Assembly: GCF_018141425.1 (NCBI RefSeq)
Contig: NZ_CP058561.1
Span: 1 to 64,000, forward strand
Direction of reading: 5' to 3'
Source: Vallitalea guaymasensis
GTDB lineage: Bacteria > Bacillota > Clostridia > Lachnospirales > Vallitaleaceae
Length of the DNA stretch: 64,000 nt
The first letter of the stretch is position 1; each line of letters begins with the position of its first letter. The position numbers and the translations under genes were made by a program. Below the pieces are notes generated by a model that did no database searches, was not told where the DNA came from, and was given only the letters and a program-made list of their open reading frames with translations. Below, piece after piece: positions 54,283 through 62,597 of this stretch.

Positions 54283-54338
54283 GAAAAAAACCTAAAATAA
54301 TAAAGGCTCTTTCCCTATTGAAAAAAGCCTCTATTATT
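54283..54338 (-). terminator. terminator of the sugar locus
   Basis: AATAATAAAGGCT (54296-54308) pairs over 13 positions with AGCCTCTATTATT (54326-54338), one of them G-U. On the minus strand the tail contains a seven-T run (54284-54290). It lies 4 bases past the last gene of the sugar locus. Confidence 0.85.
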
Positions 54339-54342
54339 GCAA

Positions 54343-55551
54343 TTAATTATTTAATAATTTGTTGACGAACTCTTTATTCTTTTTCAATTCATTTATAGAA
54401 TTTATATAATGATGCTGCCTAGCTTTGAACAATGTAAATCTGTCTAATTCCTTGTAGTGATTTATATAGTCTAATAATCTGCTTCGCAGTTTTTCTACGT
54501 CTTCCAAGTTAAATTCATTAAGATCATTTACTTCGTCTATAATTTCATTAACCTTTTTTGCCATATCATCATATCCGATCATTTCGCTCATATAATCTGA
54601 TAAGTCCTTTAACTCTTCCCTATTGATGGCTTTTTGATTAGTGAACATATTCCATTCCATGATAAATCTCTTCAGATTCTTCTCAAGGTAGAATAAGAAA
54701 TCAGCTTTTGCTTCTACTGGTGGTTCATGGATTATTGTTACAGCCTTATCCGTTAGAAAATATGCTTTGAACATTTTATCTTCCTTATGTATATCAGCTT
54801 TTTCATTACCATTAGCATATATCAATCTACTAGCTAACAATAATGAGAAATCCTCACCTCTTGGAACATCCTCTGGATAAAACATTTTTCCTGCGAAGTC
54901 TTTTCTGACTATCATATTTCCACCGAAACCAAATAAAGTTTCTTTTATATTATCATCCTTGGTAAGTCTTATGATATCGTTATCCATAGAGGAAAATTTT
55001 TTCCAGCTTTTTAATTTATCTTCTGTTTTTATTCTTATGGTACCATTTTTTTCATAAGGTGCAGTAAAGATATATTTGTCCTCATTATCGTTCAACACTT
55101 CTTTTATATAAACCATATAATCTTTTCTCAATAATTCATCATCATCAATTTGAATAATTATATCTTCGTCCAGTAAATAAGGAATCATGAATCCTAATGT
55201 CCTTATTTCAGGATAGCCTTTAACAGAAAAAAATTCATTTTGAGTATTTATTCTATAATTATTGATATCTGTATTAGTATATATTGAATTAGGGAATCTA
55301 CAAGTATTCATGACTCCTGCTACTTTATCTCTAATAATACTATCTTTCGTTGTATCTTCATTAGTTCCTATTGCAAATATATATATTTTAAGATTATCTT
55401 CATCATCTACTTTCAATTCATTAACACTTTTTATTGTATTTACCAATGTATTATCGTCTTCAAAACTCTCTAGACCTGTTGGATGATCGAATACATTTAT
55501 CATATTTTTATCAGTATCAATGTAAACATTAATTACCATAGCAAAATTCAT
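54343..55551 (-). CDS. putative GT-A-type glycosyltransferase, last gene of the sugar locus
   Basis: This is a 402-residue cytoplasmic protein. The N-terminal part looks like a GT-A fold: an alternating beta-alpha pattern, the acidic metal-binding motif IIQIDDDELL near residue 130, then FGFGGNMIVRKDFAGKMF and PRGEDFSLL, a common acceptor-side pattern in family-2-like enzymes. The last 120 residues are helical and rich in Glu, Asn and Lys. No signal or membrane segment is seen. The exact family and substrate are not recognised. The neighbouring LacI, glycosidase and transporter genes suggest a role with a sugar or glycoside taken up by the cell. Confidence 0.6.
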   Translation of the reverse strand: MNFAMVINVYIDTDKNMINVFDHPTGLESFEDDNTLVNTIKSVNELKVDDEDNLKIYIFAIGTNEDTTKDSIIRDKVAGVMNTCRFPNSIYTNTDINNYRINTQNEFFSVKGYPEIRTLGFMIPYLLDEDIIIQIDDDELLRKDYMVYIKEVLNDNEDKYIFTAPYEKNGTIRIKTEDKLKSWKKFSSMDNDIIRLTKDDNIKETLFGFGGNMIVRKDFAGKMFYPEDVPRGEDFSLLLASRLIYANGNEKADIHKEDKMFKAYFLTDKAVTIIHEPPVEAKADFLFYLEKNLKRFIMEWNMFTNQKAINREELKDLSDYMSEMIGYDDMAKKVNEIIDEVNDLNEFNLEDVEKLRSRLLDYINHYKELDRFTLFKARQHHYINSINELKKNKEFVNKLLNN

Positions 55552-55594
55552 ATTTCATTAATTCCTTTCCTGTAAAAGTGTATGCTATATGAGT

Positions 55595-56632
55595 TTATTC
55601 CTCAATTTTTCTAGTAGTATGGCGATATATTATTTTGGGGTCAAATATTATTTTTGTTTCACCATCATAATTATCTTCTTCATTTATCATACCTATCAAT
55701 ATCTCTATTGCCTTAGATGAAATATCCTTGGCATTCTGTTCAACTGTTGTCAAAGATGGAACAGTGAATTCTGAAATAGGTATATTATCAAATCCAACAA
55801 CCTGTATATCTTCAGGAATGGATATTCCCTTCTCATTAAGGGATTTTAGTACACCAAAAGCTTTTTCATCTCCAGACACAAATATTGCATCTGGCAATTT
55901 ACCCTCTTCAATTATTTGATTACACGCTGTATATGCTTCTTTATATGACTTGATTCCTTCATATATAATAAAATCCTGCTTTTGTAATTTATTATCCAAA
56001 ACAGCTGTATAGAATCCTTCTCTTCTTTCCTCATTAGAAATATACCTATTACTACCAAGGAAAAAAAGGATGGACTTACAACCACTTCTTATAAGATATT
56101 GTGTAACAAGGTATGATGCTTTATAGTTATCGATTTCAACAAATGGATTTTCGGGATAATTATAATTCTTTCCTATAGTTACATAGGGAATACCTAATTC
56201 CTGGAATAATCTTATCTTATTATCATCTTTTTGAATGTTAAGGATTATAGCACCATCAACAAAACCAGATTTTAGAAGATGTATATTTTTTTTATTCTCT
56301 TCTTCATCATCCATATTGAATTGAAACATGAAAACATTATATTCATAAGCAGAAGCTTGATTAATAATGTTCTGGAACATATTGGAATACCATTGTCCTG
56401 GATACAGGTCTTGTTGTTTCTCAATAACAAGTATAATATTCTTTGCTGTCTTCTTTCTAAGACTCTTTGCATATATATTTGTTTCAAAACCAGTTTCTTT
56501 GATGACATCATTAATAATTTTTCTTGTTTCTTCTTTTACGTATTGTCCGTTGTTTATAACTCTTGATACAGTTCTAACAGAAAAACCTGTCCTCTTAGCT
56601 ATATCCTTAATGGTTAAATTGTTTTTTCCCAT
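55595..56632 (-). CDS. LacI family transcriptional regulator of the sugar locus
   Basis: This 345-residue protein has an N-terminal LacI helix-turn-helix (LTIKDIAKRTGFSVRTVSRVINNG, given here by its key parts IKDIAKRTG and RTVSRVIN), the hinge (ETGFETNIYAKSLRKK) and a periplasmic-binding-like sugar domain. The likely targets are the three palindromes at 62496-62597, which have the central CG or CA typical for this family. It lies inside the operon it presumably controls, giving feedback control. The effector is unknown. Confidence 0.9.
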   Translation of the reverse strand: MGKNNLTIKDIAKRTGFSVRTVSRVINNGQYVKEETRKIINDVIKETGFETNIYAKSLRKKTAKNIILVIEKQQDLYPGQWYSNMFQNIINQASAYEYNVFMFQFNMDDEEENKKNIHLLKSGFVDGAIILNIQKDDNKIRLFQELGIPYVTIGKNYNYPENPFVEIDNYKASYLVTQYLIRSGCKSILFFLGSNRYISNEERREGFYTAVLDNKLQKQDFIIYEGIKSYKEAYTACNQIIEEGKLPDAIFVSGDEKAFGVLKSLNEKGISIPEDIQVVGFDNIPISEFTVPSLTTVEQNAKDISSKAIEILIGMINEEDNYDGETKIIFDPKIIYRHTTRKIEE

Positions 56633-56664
56633 TTCTTCCCTTCTTTCTATTGGAAAAAATTATT

Positions 56665-59181
56665 CTATTTCATAATTAACATAGAATTTATTGGTCTTAT
56701 CATTCCTGCTGACGAAAGATCTGATGTACATGGATAGCTCAGTTCAATTAGTTGATTCTTATAAATCATACTTAGACAACTAGAAGCTCCTCCGTCTAGA
56801 TTCATTACCCAATCAACTGCTCCTACTTCTTTTTCTAGAATACCAACTATTTCATTGAAATTAGCTCCACAACTTTCTTTTGTTCTTCCAGAAAAAACGA
56901 ACACAAAAAATTTATTAGTTCTCGTTAGACCAACAACTGTTCTAGGACCTCTAACCCAATCTTGTACTTGAGTCTCTTGGGTCTGCATTGAAAGAGGATG
57001 AAACCATCCTTCTCTTTTAAATGCTTCAATTTGCACTTGGTTATTAGAAACCAGATTCTTGCCATTTTCAACTAGCAGTGTAGCTCCACCATAAACCCAA
57101 CTAATATCATCCCATTGTCCTTGGGTCATATCCTCAGGCTTTTCAAGATATACATCCAGTTTATAAGGTTTAGTAATTTTATAATAATCATCATTAATAC
57201 CAGTCAATCCCAGTGAATCTACTAACCTTTTTATATAATCGCCTGTAACAGACAGAACAACTCCTATACTAGGTATAGATACTTCTCCATATCTTACACA
57301 AACTATTTTATTATTTATTATAACAATATTTAACCTATTTTTACCATATGAATAGAAAAATTTTCTATAATCTTCATTATTCTTGCTCAAATCCTGATTA
57401 TCAATATATGGAGTAATGATATTGACATTTCCATTGTCACTATTTACATCATCTCTATCCCATGTAATTTCTTCATTGTTGATTATTATCTTACCACCTT
57501 GTAAAGTTCTTCTACCGAAAATTACTTGACCGGATTTGGTACAGCCTATGAATGCTTTATTATATAATGGAAAATATTCTTCTCTGTTAGTATCTTCATT
57601 TACATACTTGTATCCAAGAAAAATCTTACCTACATCAATCTTTTCATTTGGAAGTTCTTTCCTTGTAGAATTATAAGCTTCAACAATATTATCCGTGGCA
57701 AAATATAAAAAGTTACAGCAATATCTTAGATCTCGTTCTATATCATTCTTAAAATACTCCCTAGGTGAAATCAAACTTTTATTTAATTTTTCTGCTTCTA
57801 CAGGTTTTAATGAAACATTATCATCAAATAACAACCCTGTTACAAGTACATTATTATTGTGTTCATGATTATAAACATCATCTGTTGTCTTTTCTATATT
57901 ATCTGCATTATAATAACATGAGATATATTTACCTCTAAAATGATTATTGATAAATTCATATAAGATTTCTCTTTCTGCAACTTTATAATCTGCTTCACTT
58001 TGTTGTTTATCCATTAGAAACTCTGGAAAATCATTCCTCTTTATACTTGTTGAATAAAAATTCATGTATTTAATGGGCAGCAAGTTGTTAATATCTTCAC
58101 CTGATTTAAATACCTCTCTACATCTTTTTATACCATATTCATTAAGTAAACAATTATAATGAAATAAGCTCATAGTTATTCTTTCATTACCAGTAAAGTC
58201 ATAATCACAATCAAACTCTTTTATGACATAACCTATTATATATGGAATATCACTGCTGCCGTTTCTATAAATGTTAGTATATCTTGAAACTACTACATTT
58301 TGAACAGTAGACAATATAAAGTAATCAAAAGAAACATTTTTCAATGAAAATATATGTTTCTCACCTAGACCTATAACAAGTGTTTTATTACTGGAGGCTT
58401 TACCAAATAATATGGCATCTTCTTTCTCCAGTTTACTGAAATCCATTCCTACAGAAGTATTGTCATAGATTTTTATTTGTGTATTCTTTTTAATTAAGTC
58501 ATTAGATTCTATAGTAGCTTGATTATCCATAATATCATAATAATCATCAATTGTTGCTTCATCATGAATGCTACTTTTTTTTACATAGATAACTATTTTT
58601 TTATCTCTAAACTCTAATAACTCATTGTTGACGATTATCTGCAAAAGAGTTAATAATTGTTTATTGTCACCTGCTAAAAATATAAGTTCTTCTGCAATCA
58701 TCATCTTAGTTTTCAAAATTTCCAACTTATTGATTACACTAGTATTGTATCTTATTTTCTTTGGTATACCACTATAAATTAAATTAATAATGGCATTATC
58801 AAAATTCAATTTTTCCAATTTATTCGTTGAAATATATTCTTCATCTAAACTATAGCTACTATAAATATCTTTCATGTCTTTATCAAATGTTTCTTGTCTG
58901 ATTTTATGTATATCACCGTATATCTCCTCATCTGTATAATCTTCTAAAAGAGTAAAATCCATAAAATAATCTTTAAGCTTATTATAATAATGTTGGTAAC
59001 GGTATTTATCCACTTTATCTTTACTATAGGCAAGATCCAGAGCATAATCAATTATTACTTCATTACCTTTTGCTTTATCTACCTTTACAGAACCATAATT
59101 ATACCTTAAGTATTGAAAATAGCCTTTTGTCAATTTTCTTTTATAGGCTCCTGCAACATAATTATGTTTATAAATCATCAT
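56665..59181 (-). CDS. large cytoplasmic protein with C-terminal phosphodiester glycosidase (NAGPA) domain
   Basis: The protein has 838 residues. The last 250 or so match the NAGPA/DUF2233 phosphodiester glycosidase family: VYGGATLLVENG, RGPRTVVGLTRTNKFFVFVFSGR and VMNLDGGASSCLSM, the usual catalytic-site pattern. Human NAGPA removes GlcNAc from GlcNAc-1-phospho-mannose. The first roughly 550 residues are not recognised; they are rich in Tyr, Asp, Asn and Lys, with no signal peptide, membrane segment or repeats. The product is therefore predicted cytoplasmic, unlike most NAGPA-domain proteins. Its ATG overlaps the stop of the permease gene by 4 bases, so it is firmly part of the uptake operon. 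Confidence 0.7.
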   Translation of the reverse strand: MMIYKHNYVAGAYKRKLTKGYFQYLRYNYGSVKVDKAKGNEVIIDYALDLAYSKDKVDKYRYQHYYNKLKDYFMDFTLLEDYTDEEIYGDIHKIRQETFDKDMKDIYSSYSLDEEYISTNKLEKLNFDNAIINLIYSGIPKKIRYNTSVINKLEILKTKMMIAEELIFLAGDNKQLLTLLQIIVNNELLEFRDKKIVIYVKKSSIHDEATIDDYYDIMDNQATIESNDLIKKNTQIKIYDNTSVGMDFSKLEKEDAILFGKASSNKTLVIGLGEKHIFSLKNVSFDYFILSTVQNVVVSRYTNIYRNGSSDIPYIIGYVIKEFDCDYDFTGNERITMSLFHYNCLLNEYGIKRCREVFKSGEDINNLLPIKYMNFYSTSIKRNDFPEFLMDKQQSEADYKVAEREILYEFINNHFRGKYISCYYNADNIEKTTDDVYNHEHNNNVLVTGLLFDDNVSLKPVEAEKLNKSLISPREYFKNDIERDLRYCCNFLYFATDNIVEAYNSTRKELPNEKIDVGKIFLGYKYVNEDTNREEYFPLYNKAFIGCTKSGQVIFGRRTLQGGKIIINNEEITWDRDDVNSDNGNVNIITPYIDNQDLSKNNEDYRKFFYSYGKNRLNIVIINNKIVCVRYGEVSIPSIGVVLSVTGDYIKRLVDSLGLTGINDDYYKITKPYKLDVYLEKPEDMTQGQWDDISWVYGGATLLVENGKNLVSNNQVQIEAFKREGWFHPLSMQTQETQVQDWVRGPRTVVGLTRTNKFFVFVFSGRTKESCGANFNEIVGILEKEVGAVDWVMNLDGGASSCLSMIYKNQLIELSYPCTSDLSSAGMIRPINSMLIMK

Positions 59182-60035
59182 TCTTTTACTCCTCCATCAA
59201 GTATACCTGATATAATCTTTCTTTGGAGTAATAGAACAACAATTATCAGTGGTACTGTGATTACAATAGAAGCTGCACACATGGTTCCCCAAGGAACAGT
59301 ATAATCTGTTTGATAAAGAGTGATTCCTACTGTAACCGTACGTCTAATCTTTAATGGATTCAATACTTGCGCAAATAGATATTGATTCCATGCAGTTATG
59401 AATACAAGTATACTTACAGTAAATAATCCCGGTGCAACAAGAGGCATGATAATTTTATAGAAGCATTTGAAAATAGATGCTCCATCAATCATTGCGCTCT
59501 CTTCTAAAGTATTAGGTACTGATTTGAAAAATGTTGATAAGAACCATACTGCCATTGGTAATTGTGTGGTTGTGATAGCTAGTGCCAGCCCCCAATAAGT
59601 GTTAAGCAATCTAAGATTCTTCATCATTTTATATATAGGATTAATAATTGTTATTGGTGGTAGTAAAGTTATGCTCAGCAGCACTAACATGAATACCTTT
59701 TTCCCTTTTATATCAGTTCTTGAAACAGCATAGCTTGCTAAACATCCTATTGACACTGACAATGCTGTACTTACCAATGAAATAACTGTGCTGTTTTTCA
59801 AATATAGTAAAAAGGGTTGTCTTTCAAAGACATCTATGTAATTCTGTAATGTCCATTCTGATGGCCAAAATGTGGGAGGAATGCTAAATAGATCTTTCTG
59901 ATTCTTAAATGAATTTAAAAATTGCCATATAAACGGAAATATGATTCCACCAACAAAAAATATGAAGAATAAGGCAAACAAAACTCCTTTAATATATTTT
60001 TTTAGTTTTATTGATTTAGTATTTTTTTTCATCAT
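59178..60035 (-). CDS. carbohydrate ABC transporter permease, MalG type
   Basis: This is the second inner-membrane subunit of a CUT1 sugar importer: six predicted membrane segments over 285 residues and the EAA loop LEESAMIDGASIFKCFYKIIMP that contacts the ATPase. The stop and start codons of neighbours overlap on both sides. No ATPase gene is present in the locus, so a shared MsmX/UgpC-type ATPase encoded elsewhere must energise it. Confidence 0.95.
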   Translation of the reverse strand: MMKKNTKSIKLKKYIKGVLFALFFIFFVGGIIFPFIWQFLNSFKNQKDLFSIPPTFWPSEWTLQNYIDVFERQPFLLYLKNSTVISLVSTALSVSIGCLASYAVSRTDIKGKKVFMLVLLSITLLPPITIINPIYKMMKNLRLLNTYWGLALAITTTQLPMAVWFLSTFFKSVPNTLEESAMIDGASIFKCFYKIIMPLVAPGLFTVSILVFITAWNQYLFAQVLNPLKIRRTVTVGITLYQTDYTVPWGTMCAASIVITVPLIIVVLLLQRKIISGILDGGVKE

Positions 60036-60919
60036 TACACCTTCTCCATCTTGGTCTTCAACGCATCCATAAACAAAAAGCTTATCAATAGGGAAATTAT
60101 AAAGGTTACTACGGCTAATGTTGCACCATATCCAAGATTACCAAAATTGAAATAAGTCTTGATTGTATATAGAGATAAACTTTGAGTTCCGTCAGCTGGC
60201 CCACCGCTTGTTAGTGCGACTACCAAATCATATATACGGAATGTAGCAAGCACTCTAAATAATATAGCTACAACAACAACCGGTTTAATTATTGGCAGTG
60301 TAATTCTAAAAAATCTCTGTATCTTGTTAGCTCCATCAAGGGAAGCCGCTTCATATAGACTTTCAGGAACTGTTTGAAGCCCTGATAGAATAAGCAGTGA
60401 CATGTAAGGTGTAGTTTTCCATACATCCGCAATAATAACTGCTATTATGGCTGTATTTTTCTCAATAAGCCAAGGTATATAATCTTGAATAAGATGAAGT
60501 TTGCTTAGTATAAGATTGATGATTCCATATTGATCACTATACATGAACTGCCACATCAAACCTGAAACTATAGTAGGTATAGCCCAAGGCACTAGTACAG
60601 CAGTTCTAATTATACCTTGTCCTGGAATAGCTTTATTCATGATTAAGGCAAAAATCATACCTATCAAAGTTTCCAAGGTTACAGCAACAACTGTAAACAT
60701 CAATGTAAACTTCAAACTCTCTATAAAAGTCTTATCACTGAATAATTTGATATAATTATCAAACCCAACAAATTTCTTGCCCTCTGCCAAAGTCTGAATA
60801 CGAAGATCATAAAGACTCATGTTAATTGTATTAATAACAGGATATACTATAAAAACCAATACTAATACAATTGAAGGTATTATGAATATATAACCCATTT
60901 TGGCCTTCTGTTTTTGCAT
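60035..60919 (-). CDS. carbohydrate ABC transporter permease, MalF/UgpA type
   Basis: This is the first permease subunit: 294 residues with six membrane segments and the EAA loop (SLYEAASLDGANKIQRFFRI). It partners the MalG-type permease, with which it overlaps by one base. A 190-base gap with an imperfect stem-loop separates it from the binding-protein gene. Confidence 0.95.
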   Translation of the reverse strand: MQKQKAKMGYIFIIPSIVLVLVFIVYPVINTINMSLYDLRIQTLAEGKKFVGFDNYIKLFSDKTFIESLKFTLMFTVVAVTLETLIGMIFALIMNKAIPGQGIIRTAVLVPWAIPTIVSGLMWQFMYSDQYGIINLILSKLHLIQDYIPWLIEKNTAIIAVIIADVWKTTPYMSLLILSGLQTVPESLYEAASLDGANKIQRFFRITLPIIKPVVVVAILFRVLATFRIYDLVVALTSGGPADGTQSLSLYTIKTYFNFGNLGYGATLAVVTFIISLLISFLFMDALKTKMEKV

Positions 60920-61021
60920 ATTCGGTCACTCCTAATTTTTATTCATTCTAGTTATATTAATATATTGTGCTTCCACCACATGTTATATATATTTAATCCA
61001 AGTGGAGTTTTTGTTCTATAA

Positions 61022-61071
61022 AGATTAGAACGCCGATAGAAAATTATTCCATCCAACGTTCTCTCTAATCT
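61022..61071 (-). repeat. stem-loop between binding-protein and permease genes
   Basis: AGATTAGAACG (61022-61032) pairs with CGTTCTCTCTAATCT (61057-61071) except for a 4-base bulge; the loop is 24 bases. No T-run follows. Such structures between binding-protein and permease genes commonly stabilise the upstream mRNA so that the binding protein is made in excess. Confidence 0.55.
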
Positions 61072-61108
61072 CTCGTTTCATATCACTAACTGAAATTAAT
61101 TCAATATA

Positions 61109-62380
61109 TTATTGTCCGATTATCTTCTTAATCTCGTTATCAGCATCTTTAACTGCATCTTCAACTGTTTTTTCTCCTACAAAAGCTAATTGTGTCTGTA
61201 GTTGAAGTACATTGGAGATTTCTGAATAATATGGTGATTTTGGTCTTGGATTAGCATTCATGAATACTGGTAACATATTCTCAACAAAAGGCATTTTTTC
61301 AAGAATCTCTTTATCTTCATATAATGACTTGATAGATGGTAAATGACTTAGTCCAAGAGCTTCCATTTTCTCAGCTTCTTCACCAGCCATGAATTTAGCA
61401 AATTTTATTGCCTCTTCTTGGTTCTTTGAAAATTTTGATACCATGATTTGCCATCCACCAAGAGTAGAATAACTGTTACCATCTTTATCTGCTTTTGGTA
61501 ATTGTGCTATCCCAACTTTTCCTACTACTTGTGATTTATCTGCATCTTGTGATTTGTTCCATCCACTTGGCCAGTCTCTTAGAAAAACTAATTTTCCAGC
61601 AAAAAATGGAGCTCTAGCATCACCGCTACCAAAGTTGATAATTCCTTCTGGAGTAATTTTTGAAGTATTAATCATATCAACCATCATCTTTGTGGCTTTA
61701 ACAGTTTCAGGGGAATTGTAGATCACTTTTCCGTCTTCATCGAAAACATCCCCACCATAACTCCAAACATATTCCATTAAATTACATGTCAAACCTTCAT
61801 ATTGTTTCCATGACCCTGCCAAACCTTTCATTTCTGGTTCTTTTTCCATTATATATGTAGCTGTTTCAACTAACTCTTCCCAAGTTTCTGGAACAGGCTT
61901 ATTATATTTTTTCAATAAGTCTTTTCTGTAATAAAGCATACCTGCATCAATTCTGTAAGGTAGTCCCCATAATTTATCCTTATATATATTTGCATTTATT
62001 GCACCAGGCAGATATTTATCTTTTTCATCTTGTGTCAATTGGTCAGTTAAATCTGTTACCCAGCCAGCTGAAGCAAAAATTGGAGGCCATGTTACATCCG
62101 CATCAAACATATCCAACGAATCATCCTCTGCCTGCAATGCTGTACTAATCATCTGTAACTTTTTATTAGTATCAGCTGGTAATTCAACAACATTAACTTT
62201 AATATTAGGATTTTCTTCGTGAAATCTATTTATAATATTGGTAAGTGTTCCATTTTCATCAACATGAGAATAATAGTTTAAAGTTACCTCTTTTTCTTCA
62301 TCACTATTCTCAGCCTTGCATCCTGCTGATATAACAACTAAACACATTATTAAAAGTACACTTATTATTTTTCTTTTCAT
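61109..62380 (-). CDS. sugar-binding lipoprotein of ABC transporter (family 1)
   Basis: This is the extracellular receptor for the importer. The signal peptide ends in lipobox ISAGC (lipidated Cys21). The mature part has the family-1 pattern, including DMFDADVTWPPIFASAGWV, LPYRIDAGMLYYRKDLL and the tail ADNEIKKIIGQ. The start is ATG 62380, which follows AAGGAGA; an in-frame start at 62434 would put 18 residues before the signal peptide. The length is 423 aa. It is the first gene of the locus, behind a LacI-controlled promoter. Confidence 0.96.
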   Translation of the reverse strand: MKRKIISVLLIMCLVVISAGCKAENSDEEKEVTLNYYSHVDENGTLTNIINRFHEENPNIKVNVVELPADTNKKLQMISTALQAEDDSLDMFDADVTWPPIFASAGWVTDLTDQLTQDEKDKYLPGAINANIYKDKLWGLPYRIDAGMLYYRKDLLKKYNKPVPETWEELVETATYIMEKEPEMKGLAGSWKQYEGLTCNLMEYVWSYGGDVFDEDGKVIYNSPETVKATKMMVDMINTSKITPEGIINFGSGDARAPFFAGKLVFLRDWPSGWNKSQDADKSQVVGKVGIAQLPKADKDGNSYSTLGGWQIMVSKFSKNQEEAIKFAKFMAGEEAEKMEALGLSHLPSIKSLYEDKEILEKMPFVENMLPVFMNANPRPKSPYYSEISNVLQLQTQLAFVGEKTVEDAVKDADNEIKKIIGQ

Positions 62381-62472
62381 TTTTAATTTCTCCTTAATAT
62401 AATTTGTAGTATATCTTCTAGATAAGTCAATCACTTACATGCAGCTATTGTTATACGCACCTCCTGTCTATG

Positions 62473-62501
62473 ATTATACACTAATATGTCTCTTTTGCCA
62501 A
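62473..62501 (-). promoter_or_regulatory. promoter of the sugar locus
   Basis: On the minus strand TTGGCA (62496-62501), 17 bases, TATAAT (62473-62478). The -35 hexamer is the downstream half of operator 1, so bound repressor would block RNA polymerase. Confidence 0.8.
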
Positions 62502-62509
62502 CGATGGCA
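62496..62509. promoter_or_regulatory. LacI-type operator 1, on the -35 box
   Basis: TGCCAACGATGGCA: dyad TGCCA...TGGCA with central CG. It is the exact complement of operator 2. Confidence 0.82.
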
Positions 62510-62538
62510 GTTTTAGGACAAAAAAATAATTTTACTTC

Positions 62539-62552
62539 TGCCATCGTTGGCA
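62539..62552. promoter_or_regulatory. LacI-type operator 2
   Basis: TGCCATCGTTGGCA, the reverse complement of operator 1, with centres 43 bases apart. Confidence 0.8.
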
Positions 62553-62583
62553 TTAGACTTAAAATAAAAAAACTTTACTTTTC

Positions 62584-62597
62584 TGCCATCATTGGCA
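62584..62597. promoter_or_regulatory. LacI-type operator 3
   Basis: TGCCATCATTGGCA, within a longer TTCTGCCA...TGGCAGAA dyad. The centre is 45 bases from operator 2. The central CG is replaced by CA. Confidence 0.75.

Follow-up and report, generated by a model that had tools for sequence, protein, structure and literature searches.

The 64,000-nucleotide stretch of Vallitalea guaymasensis DNA analysed here (contig NZ_CP058561.1, positions 1 to 64,000; hereafter the window) carries, at 54343-62434, a single bounded unit of six minus-strand open reading frames (ORFs), delimited by the ORF list and by promoter, palindrome and terminator matches. The unit encodes a CUT1-type sugar importer, a LacI-family regulator, a GT-A-like protein and an 838-residue fusion protein whose C-terminal half belongs to the NAGPA family (PF09992). 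We read it as a catabolic sugar operon in which the fusion, acting in the cytoplasm, splits an imported, non-phosphorylated alpha-linked oligosaccharide, and give this reading an even chance of being correct.

According to this proposal, a lipoprotein and two permeases, energised by an ATPase encoded elsewhere, would import an alpha-linked di- or oligosaccharide, and the operon's LacI protein, bound to three operators upstream, would keep the unit repressed as long as the sugar is absent. The C-terminal NAGPA domain would then cleave the imported sugar, which is non-phosphorylated, at its glycosidic bond. The N-terminal half, a degenerate DUF89-like domain, would be a former phosphatase that now serves in substrate or phosphate binding or in assembly, and the fusion as a whole would be the counterpart of the GH13 enzyme encoded in a sister operon.

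To our knowledge, few NAGPA-domain proteins have a known function, and those characterised act outside the cytoplasm. What is likely to be new here is that a NAGPA enzyme of the cytoplasm, built on a degenerate DUF89-like base, stands where a GH13 enzyme would be found. Among the matches listed and the literature excerpts available, neither a DUF89-NAGPA fusion nor a cytoplasmic NAGPA protein in a sugar operon is described. A cytoplasmic, operon-bound member of the family in a GH13 slot points to a definite class of substrates for assay. If the proposal is true, the NAGPA family would be extended from phosphodiesters to ordinary glycosides, and the DUF89-like half would show a phosphatase fold put to a new purpose. 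With a single enzyme, a single binding protein and one repressor that has candidate sites, the locus is small enough for the question to be tested directly.

The fusion stands at the place of a GH13 enzyme

A CUT1 importer set is encoded by the first three genes, according to Pfam and NCBIfam: a sugar-binding lipoprotein (61109..62380, minus strand), a MalF/UgpA-like permease (60035..60919, minus strand) and a GlcU/MalG-like permease (59178..60035, minus strand). Pfam revealed no ATPase gene of the importer's own among the six proteins of the locus; CUT1 importers often share one ATPase. Searched against the PDB, the solute-binding protein (SBP) matched MalE3 (6dtq, 3e-83), a trehalose/maltose-binding protein (1eu8, 1e-67) and 6j9w (2e-67). 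Classed by the molecule names of these solved relatives, it is closest to the maltose/trehalose type.

Among 196 genomes of the order, the closest relative of this binding protein was found in genome G423, within an operon (L148) of the order SBP-permease-permease-GH13-LacI. The two operons thus share the order SBP-permease-permease-enzyme-LacI, with identities of 49% for the SBP and 60% and 53% for the permeases, whereas the window has the NAGPA fusion in exchange for the GH13 enzyme, a divergent LacI and the additional GT-A-like gene. The G423 enzyme matches the oligo-1,6-glucosidase 1uok in the PDB (5e-197) and scores 575.8 bits with NF008183 (cut-off 535) and 626 with TIGR02403 (cut-off 799), so that by its sequence it is of the oligo-1,6-glucosidase or phosphotrehalase type. 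Since the gene order is the same and the GH13 gene lies at the slot of the fusion, the fusion stands at the place that an alpha-glucosidase-type enzyme has in the sister operon.

A NAGPA domain in a protein without a signal peptide

The fusion gene (56665..59181, minus strand) divides into an N-terminal half (residues 1-467; 57781..59181, minus strand) and a NAGPA part (residues 468-838; 56668..57780, minus strand) of about 370 residues. The match to PF09992 scores 52.7 bits (cut-off 25). Among the six proteins, Pfam gave matches over cut-off to NAGPA, LacI, SBP_bac_1 and, twice, BPD_transp_1, and none to a glycoside hydrolase; the initial annotation had named the NAGPA-family protein the sole predicted glycosidase of the locus, and this is borne out.

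Full-length fusions of this kind were found at seven loci in six genomes, because the window genome carries two. All seven match NAGPA, over cut-off in the four whose scores were shown. Like the established members of the family, such as the mannose-6-phosphate uncovering enzyme and the DUF2233 protein 3ohg, the window fusion keeps the signature residues N490, PRT746-748, GR765-766, D796-GG-x-S (to S800) and R829. Unlike them, it has a large N-terminal half, no signal peptide and a Ser in the D-G-R motif, and it lies in a sugar-import operon. In a PDB search, a profile of the seven fusions matched 3ohg at 1.8e-4 and the uncovering enzyme at 0.5-0.9, with an unrelated ciliary protein at 0.003 between the two. 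Identity to the window fusion is 38-40% in the C-terminal half and 18-22% in the N-terminal half.

Neither a membrane segment nor a signal was detected in the window fusion, for which the best 19-residue hydropathy over the first 40 windows was 0.11. By the same measure the best value was at most 0.36 in all seven fusions, versus 2.45 for the binding protein. The cytoplasmic location proposed earlier for the fusion therefore agrees with the low N-terminal hydropathy of the whole set.

The fusion is rare and always accompanies a CUT1 transporter

Full-length fusions were present in 2 of the 391 class genomes sampled (single-sequence query), 5 of 295 of the order and 4 of 22 of the family. NAGPA-domain proteins as such are widespread in these bacteria: the fusion query matched in 58 of the 391 class genomes, almost always with its NAGPA part alone, and the window genome has NAGPA matches at four places, two of which are the fusions. 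Within the genus, fusions are also present in genomes G406 and G408, and none was found in G404 or G405 in the 22-genome family sample.

Every fusion locus (7 of 7) carries a CUT1 transporter and a regulator, the latter being of the LacI family in the window and of the ROK family in the other six, which share the order permease-permease-SBP-ROK-fusion. The LacI form and the GT-A-like gene occur in the window locus only. The gene set put forward in the initial annotation is therefore conserved as to fusion, transporter and regulator, but not as to the GT-A-like gene (1 of 7). Reading of the ORF lists, with hidden Markov model scans on selected ORFs only, revealed no ordinary glycoside hydrolase inside the seven fusion clusters. 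A phosphohexomutase gene adjoins the fusion in two of the six ROK-type loci, those of G109 (Pfam PGM_PMM domains) and G423 (51% identical to the G109 protein); in G423, the ROK-type fusion and the GH13 sister operon lie at different places in the genome.

Among themselves, the binding proteins of the ROK-type loci share 59-92% identity, and all six are 21-25% identical to that of the window; for the permeases, compared with those of the window in four ROK-type loci, identity is 30-34%. The fusion thus keeps company with two separate lineages of transporters, which is good evidence that it acts on an imported substrate.

The second fusion of the window genome belongs to a paralogous locus at about 3.35 Mb (L006:3496-10053), which encodes two permeases, a binding protein, a ROK regulator and a 768-residue DUF89-like/NAGPA fusion; genes downstream of it appear, on reading, to be of the cobalamin type. 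In G109, a gene for a PP2C-like phosphatase (L044:8038-8907) overlaps the end of the fusion gene. NAGPA proteins with signal-like starts adjoin, as judged by eye, LytR-CpsA-Psr-like genes in G000 (L007:5841-11564) and G423 (L085:7994-11540), a cell-envelope setting unlike that of the fusion. In G408, a DUF1868 protein of the 2H-phosphodiesterase type (L150:9162-9866) follows a CUT1 transporter related to that of the window, at a position that could be expected to hold an enzyme.

A probable kinship of the N-terminal half with DUF89 phosphatases

No Pfam family was found over cut-off in the N-terminal half of the window protein or of any of the seven fusions, and PF01937 (DUF89) is absent from the families listed to E 5 for the seven. 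A remote relationship to DUF89/ARMT1-like damage-control phosphatases was nevertheless suggested by profile comparison, residues ~150-280 of the window protein aligning to the DUF89/ARMT1 core. A comparison with 10 DUF89 proteins gave a score of 31.3, which none of 100 shuffles reached. With 32 DUF89 proteins, hhalign gave a score of 41.0, a probability of 56 and a P of 1.1e-4, uncorrected for the fact that DUF89 had been picked by eye, from a motif pattern, before the test; the alignment is collinear across 114 columns. Maximum scores of the controls were 29.6 for 200 shuffles and 18.2 for six other families. The 32-protein set left out L099, L100 and L124, did not list L127 and L129, and was also without L104 and L120 (no ORF) and two proteins removed by the length filter. 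Single members aligned weakly: hhalign probabilities ranged from 0.2 to 17, the highest being that of the window protein, and the alignment of L047 fell elsewhere.

Independent of that prior choice is a search in which the N-terminal profile was run against 249 genomes translated in six frames. Beyond the two copies of the window genome, only two proteins matched, at 4.4e-5 and 4.6e-4 per genome (~0.01 and ~0.1 over the 249), and both are DUF89 proteins by Pfam (5e-66 and 4e-69). AlphaFold models, built from three sequences each, reached a mean predicted local distance difference test score of 36.8 for the full fusion and 48.3 for the N-terminal 328 residues, values too weak to prove a fold. 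Foldseek placed DUF89 structures of the PDB at ranks 6, 11 and 18 with one model and 6, 10 and 14 with the other, below methyltransferases and others, and found no match of any kind at E 0.001 for either weak model; these ranks are supportive at most of the predicted DUF89 kinship. On the profile evidence, we regard the N-terminal half as a probable DUF89-like phosphatase domain that has degenerated.

DUF89 enzymes are described as metal-dependent phosphatases, the yeast enzyme being most active on fructose-1-phosphate (PMC8669784), and two aspartates are given as essential (PMC9352595). The second of these is absent from all seven fusions, where it is replaced by Glu in the window protein and by hydrophobic residues in the other six. 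The position of the first holds Asp in four, Glu in two and Gly in the window protein, which has D-N one residue on. At the lysine of K-G-Q, which we take to be a key DUF89 residue, all seven have Leu or Phe. Given the loss of the second Asp and of this Lys throughout, phosphatase activity of the N-terminal half is unlikely. The domain also differs from DUF89/ARMT1 proteins in lacking a Pfam match and in being fused to NAGPA.

These data bear on the substrate suggested in the initial annotation, an imported sugar phosphodiester such as a glycosyl-1-phosphate or a teichoic-acid fragment, which the NAGPA domain would cleave and whose phosphorylated product the DUF89-like domain would handle. The probable phosphatase-type fold is in line with such a substrate, as are the phosphodiester activity described for the NAGPA family (PMC12024695), the phosphohexomutase beside two ROK-type fusions and the presence of SmoF among the relatives of the window binding protein. 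The paralogous locus (L006) fits as well: the best NCBIfam match of its binding protein is UgpB, at 96 bits and thus far under the cut-off of 411, and the PDB matches of that protein include UgpB (4aq4, 2e-25) behind 7bvt (5e-41) and Lmo0181 (8e-29). Against it stand the loss of the second DUF89 Asp and the K-G-Q Lys in all seven fusions (the first Asp being present in four), the closeness of the window's own binding protein to maltose/trehalose-type proteins, its UgpB score of 17.5 bits (cut-off 411) and the GH13 enzyme in the sister slot. The earlier suggestion thus gained no support at this locus, and we consider a phosphodiester substrate unlikely.

Evidence against glycoside cleavage, and alternative activities

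Several observations weigh against cleavage of a non-phosphorylated alpha-glycoside by the fusion. Some concern the substrate. SmoF (7nbz, 5e-63), among the near PDB relatives of the window binding protein, binds by its title an anionic glycoside (sulfoquinovosyl-glycerol), so that the binding-protein clade leaves room for a charged ligand. The sole NAGPA-family activity that can be cited has a sugar phosphodiester and UDP-GlcNAc as its substrates (PMC12024695). As to the sister operon, the two LacI proteins are just 30% identical, and GH13 genes lie near related transporters in two of five neighbourhoods (L148 and L149, the latter with its GH13 gene divergent from the transporter), none being seen on reading of L150, L151 and L152. 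With its three GH65 proteins (C1:236687, 3236238 and 3411368), the window genome may already be equipped to handle alpha-disaccharides, including by phosphorolysis. Finally, a 439-residue protein of G423 (L083:4948-6267), without a Pfam hit and glycosidase-like by eye, adjoins the ROK-type locus just past the mutase gene, on the opposite strand and in another transporter cluster.

A further point concerns catalysis. The fusion keeps most of the NAGPA signature, but the Asp of D-G-R is replaced by Ser in all seven fusions (Ser764 in the window protein), so that catalysis may be altered or lost. The same position is Asp in 95% of 47 non-fusion relatives. These were chosen from 58 loci by the pattern RT, G, DGG, S/T, which is therefore 100% conserved among them by construction; the comparison included six of the fusions, L048 being left out, and a separate alignment covers all seven.

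This substitution would find an explanation if the fusion were a phosphorylase, in which phosphate, bound near Ser764, replaces the lost carboxylate, attacks the substrate and yields a hexose-1-phosphate for the phosphohexomutase. The mutase genes beside the fusions of G109 and G423 fit this scheme, and the known enzyme of the family already handles a phosphate leaving group (PMC12024695). However, a mutase adjoins only two of the seven loci and is absent from that of the window, no published account was found of the role of the D-G-R Asp, and phosphate binding by the N-terminal half is itself conjectural. We give the phosphorylase a small chance. It would be a new glycoside phosphorylase, with an Asp-less NAGPA scaffold and a de-catalysed DUF89 phosphate-binding domain, which would use inorganic phosphate to cleave imported alpha-glucosides in the cytoplasm, in place of GH13 and GH65 enzymes, and in this specific form, too, it is a long shot.

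With key residues lost from both halves, the fusion could also be a cytoplasmic sugar sensor or scaffold made of two degenerate enzyme domains. The remaining NAGPA signature residues are kept, the C-terminal half is far better conserved than the N-terminal one, and most fusion clusters would then show no enzyme; a non-enzymatic role thus appears very doubtful.

Boundaries and regulation of the unit

In transcription order, from the binding protein to the GT-A-like protein, the six genes are separated by 189, -1, -4, 32 and 43 bases. The first ORF is open to GTG 62434, and translation probably starts at ATG 62380, which is preceded by AAGGAG and followed by a lipobox-like VISAGC. Upstream lie three operator-like palindromes, TGCCA-N4-TGGCA, at 62496-62509, 62539-62552 and 62584-62597, spaced by 43 and 45 bases; the outermost extends to 62597, exactly where the initial annotation ended the locus. 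The exact pattern has five sites in the single-contig genome of 5.63 Mb, three of them within this one 102-base stretch, and a control pattern (the palindrome read backwards) has one. Allowing up to three mismatches, TGCCAACGATGGCA matched the window seven times versus 1.7 expected, six of the seven matches being the three palindromes on both strands.

A promoter-like TTGGCA-17-TATAAT (62473..62501, minus strand; 11/12 match) overlaps the innermost palindrome with its -35 element. Promoter-type consensus sites number 72 in the region versus 58.6 expected, so that the match taken alone is weak evidence. The same holds for the terminator-like hairpin directly 3' of the GT-A-like gene (54296..54338, minus strand; 19 pairs, 4 of them G-C), a consensus match of which the region has four versus 1.9 expected. 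With palindromes and promoter match upstream and the hairpin downstream, the description of the six genes as one self-contained unit stands. The palindromes look like LacI-type operators, and the operon's own LacI (55595..56632, minus strand; Pfam and NCBIfam) would be the protein that binds them, so the unit is likely to be self-regulated.

The GT-A-like protein is an addition of the window genome

The last gene (54343..55551, minus strand) encodes a 402-residue protein with the motifs D136-D137-D138, FGG, RGED and HEPP, for which no glycosyltransferase match was found in Pfam, NCBIfam or the PDB. The motifs DDD, F-x-F-G-G, R-G-E-D and H-x-P-P are common to it and two aligned relatives, one of which matches Glycos_transf_2 under cut-off. 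Beyond the window, the 391 class genomes gave matches in G019 (2.5e-16), G337 (2.4e-11) and G164 (7.6e-4, spanning residues 243-376 only), and a profile gave one match, in G427, among the 295 order genomes. No relative was found in another fusion-bearing genome in the class and order samples, and the gene is an add-on of the window genome.

The G019 and G337 proteins carry a C-terminal cyclic-nucleotide-binding (cNMP) domain by Pfam, and that of G427 by sequence reading; each gene adjoins a GT4-like gene, confirmed by Pfam for G019 only. Like these proteins, the window protein has DDD, FGG and RGED, and it is 26-29% identical to the GT part of those of G019 and G337; unlike them, it has neither a cNMP domain nor a GT4 partner. 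When the profile covered the full length of the GT-A/cNMP set, its PDB matches were cNMP proteins; it was therefore cut to the GT part, with which further search gave a best E of 0.24. Against viral contigs, the GT-A profile picked out 214 stretches, of which none was confirmed.

GT-A-like/cyclic-nucleotide-binding fusions next to a GT4-like gene were noted at L041:390-2141, L042:937-2694 and L087:748-2445, one of them also with a GalU-like neighbour; gating of a glycosyltransferase by a nucleotide would be unusual. In two genomes, proteins of about 400 residues with an acidic D-T-D or similar motif (L045:3348-4559 and L046:11642-12814) adjoin such a GT4/GT-A pair. The L045 protein has no family match in Pfam or NCBIfam and the L046 protein none in NCBIfam, and the two perhaps represent a second unrecognised GT-A group.

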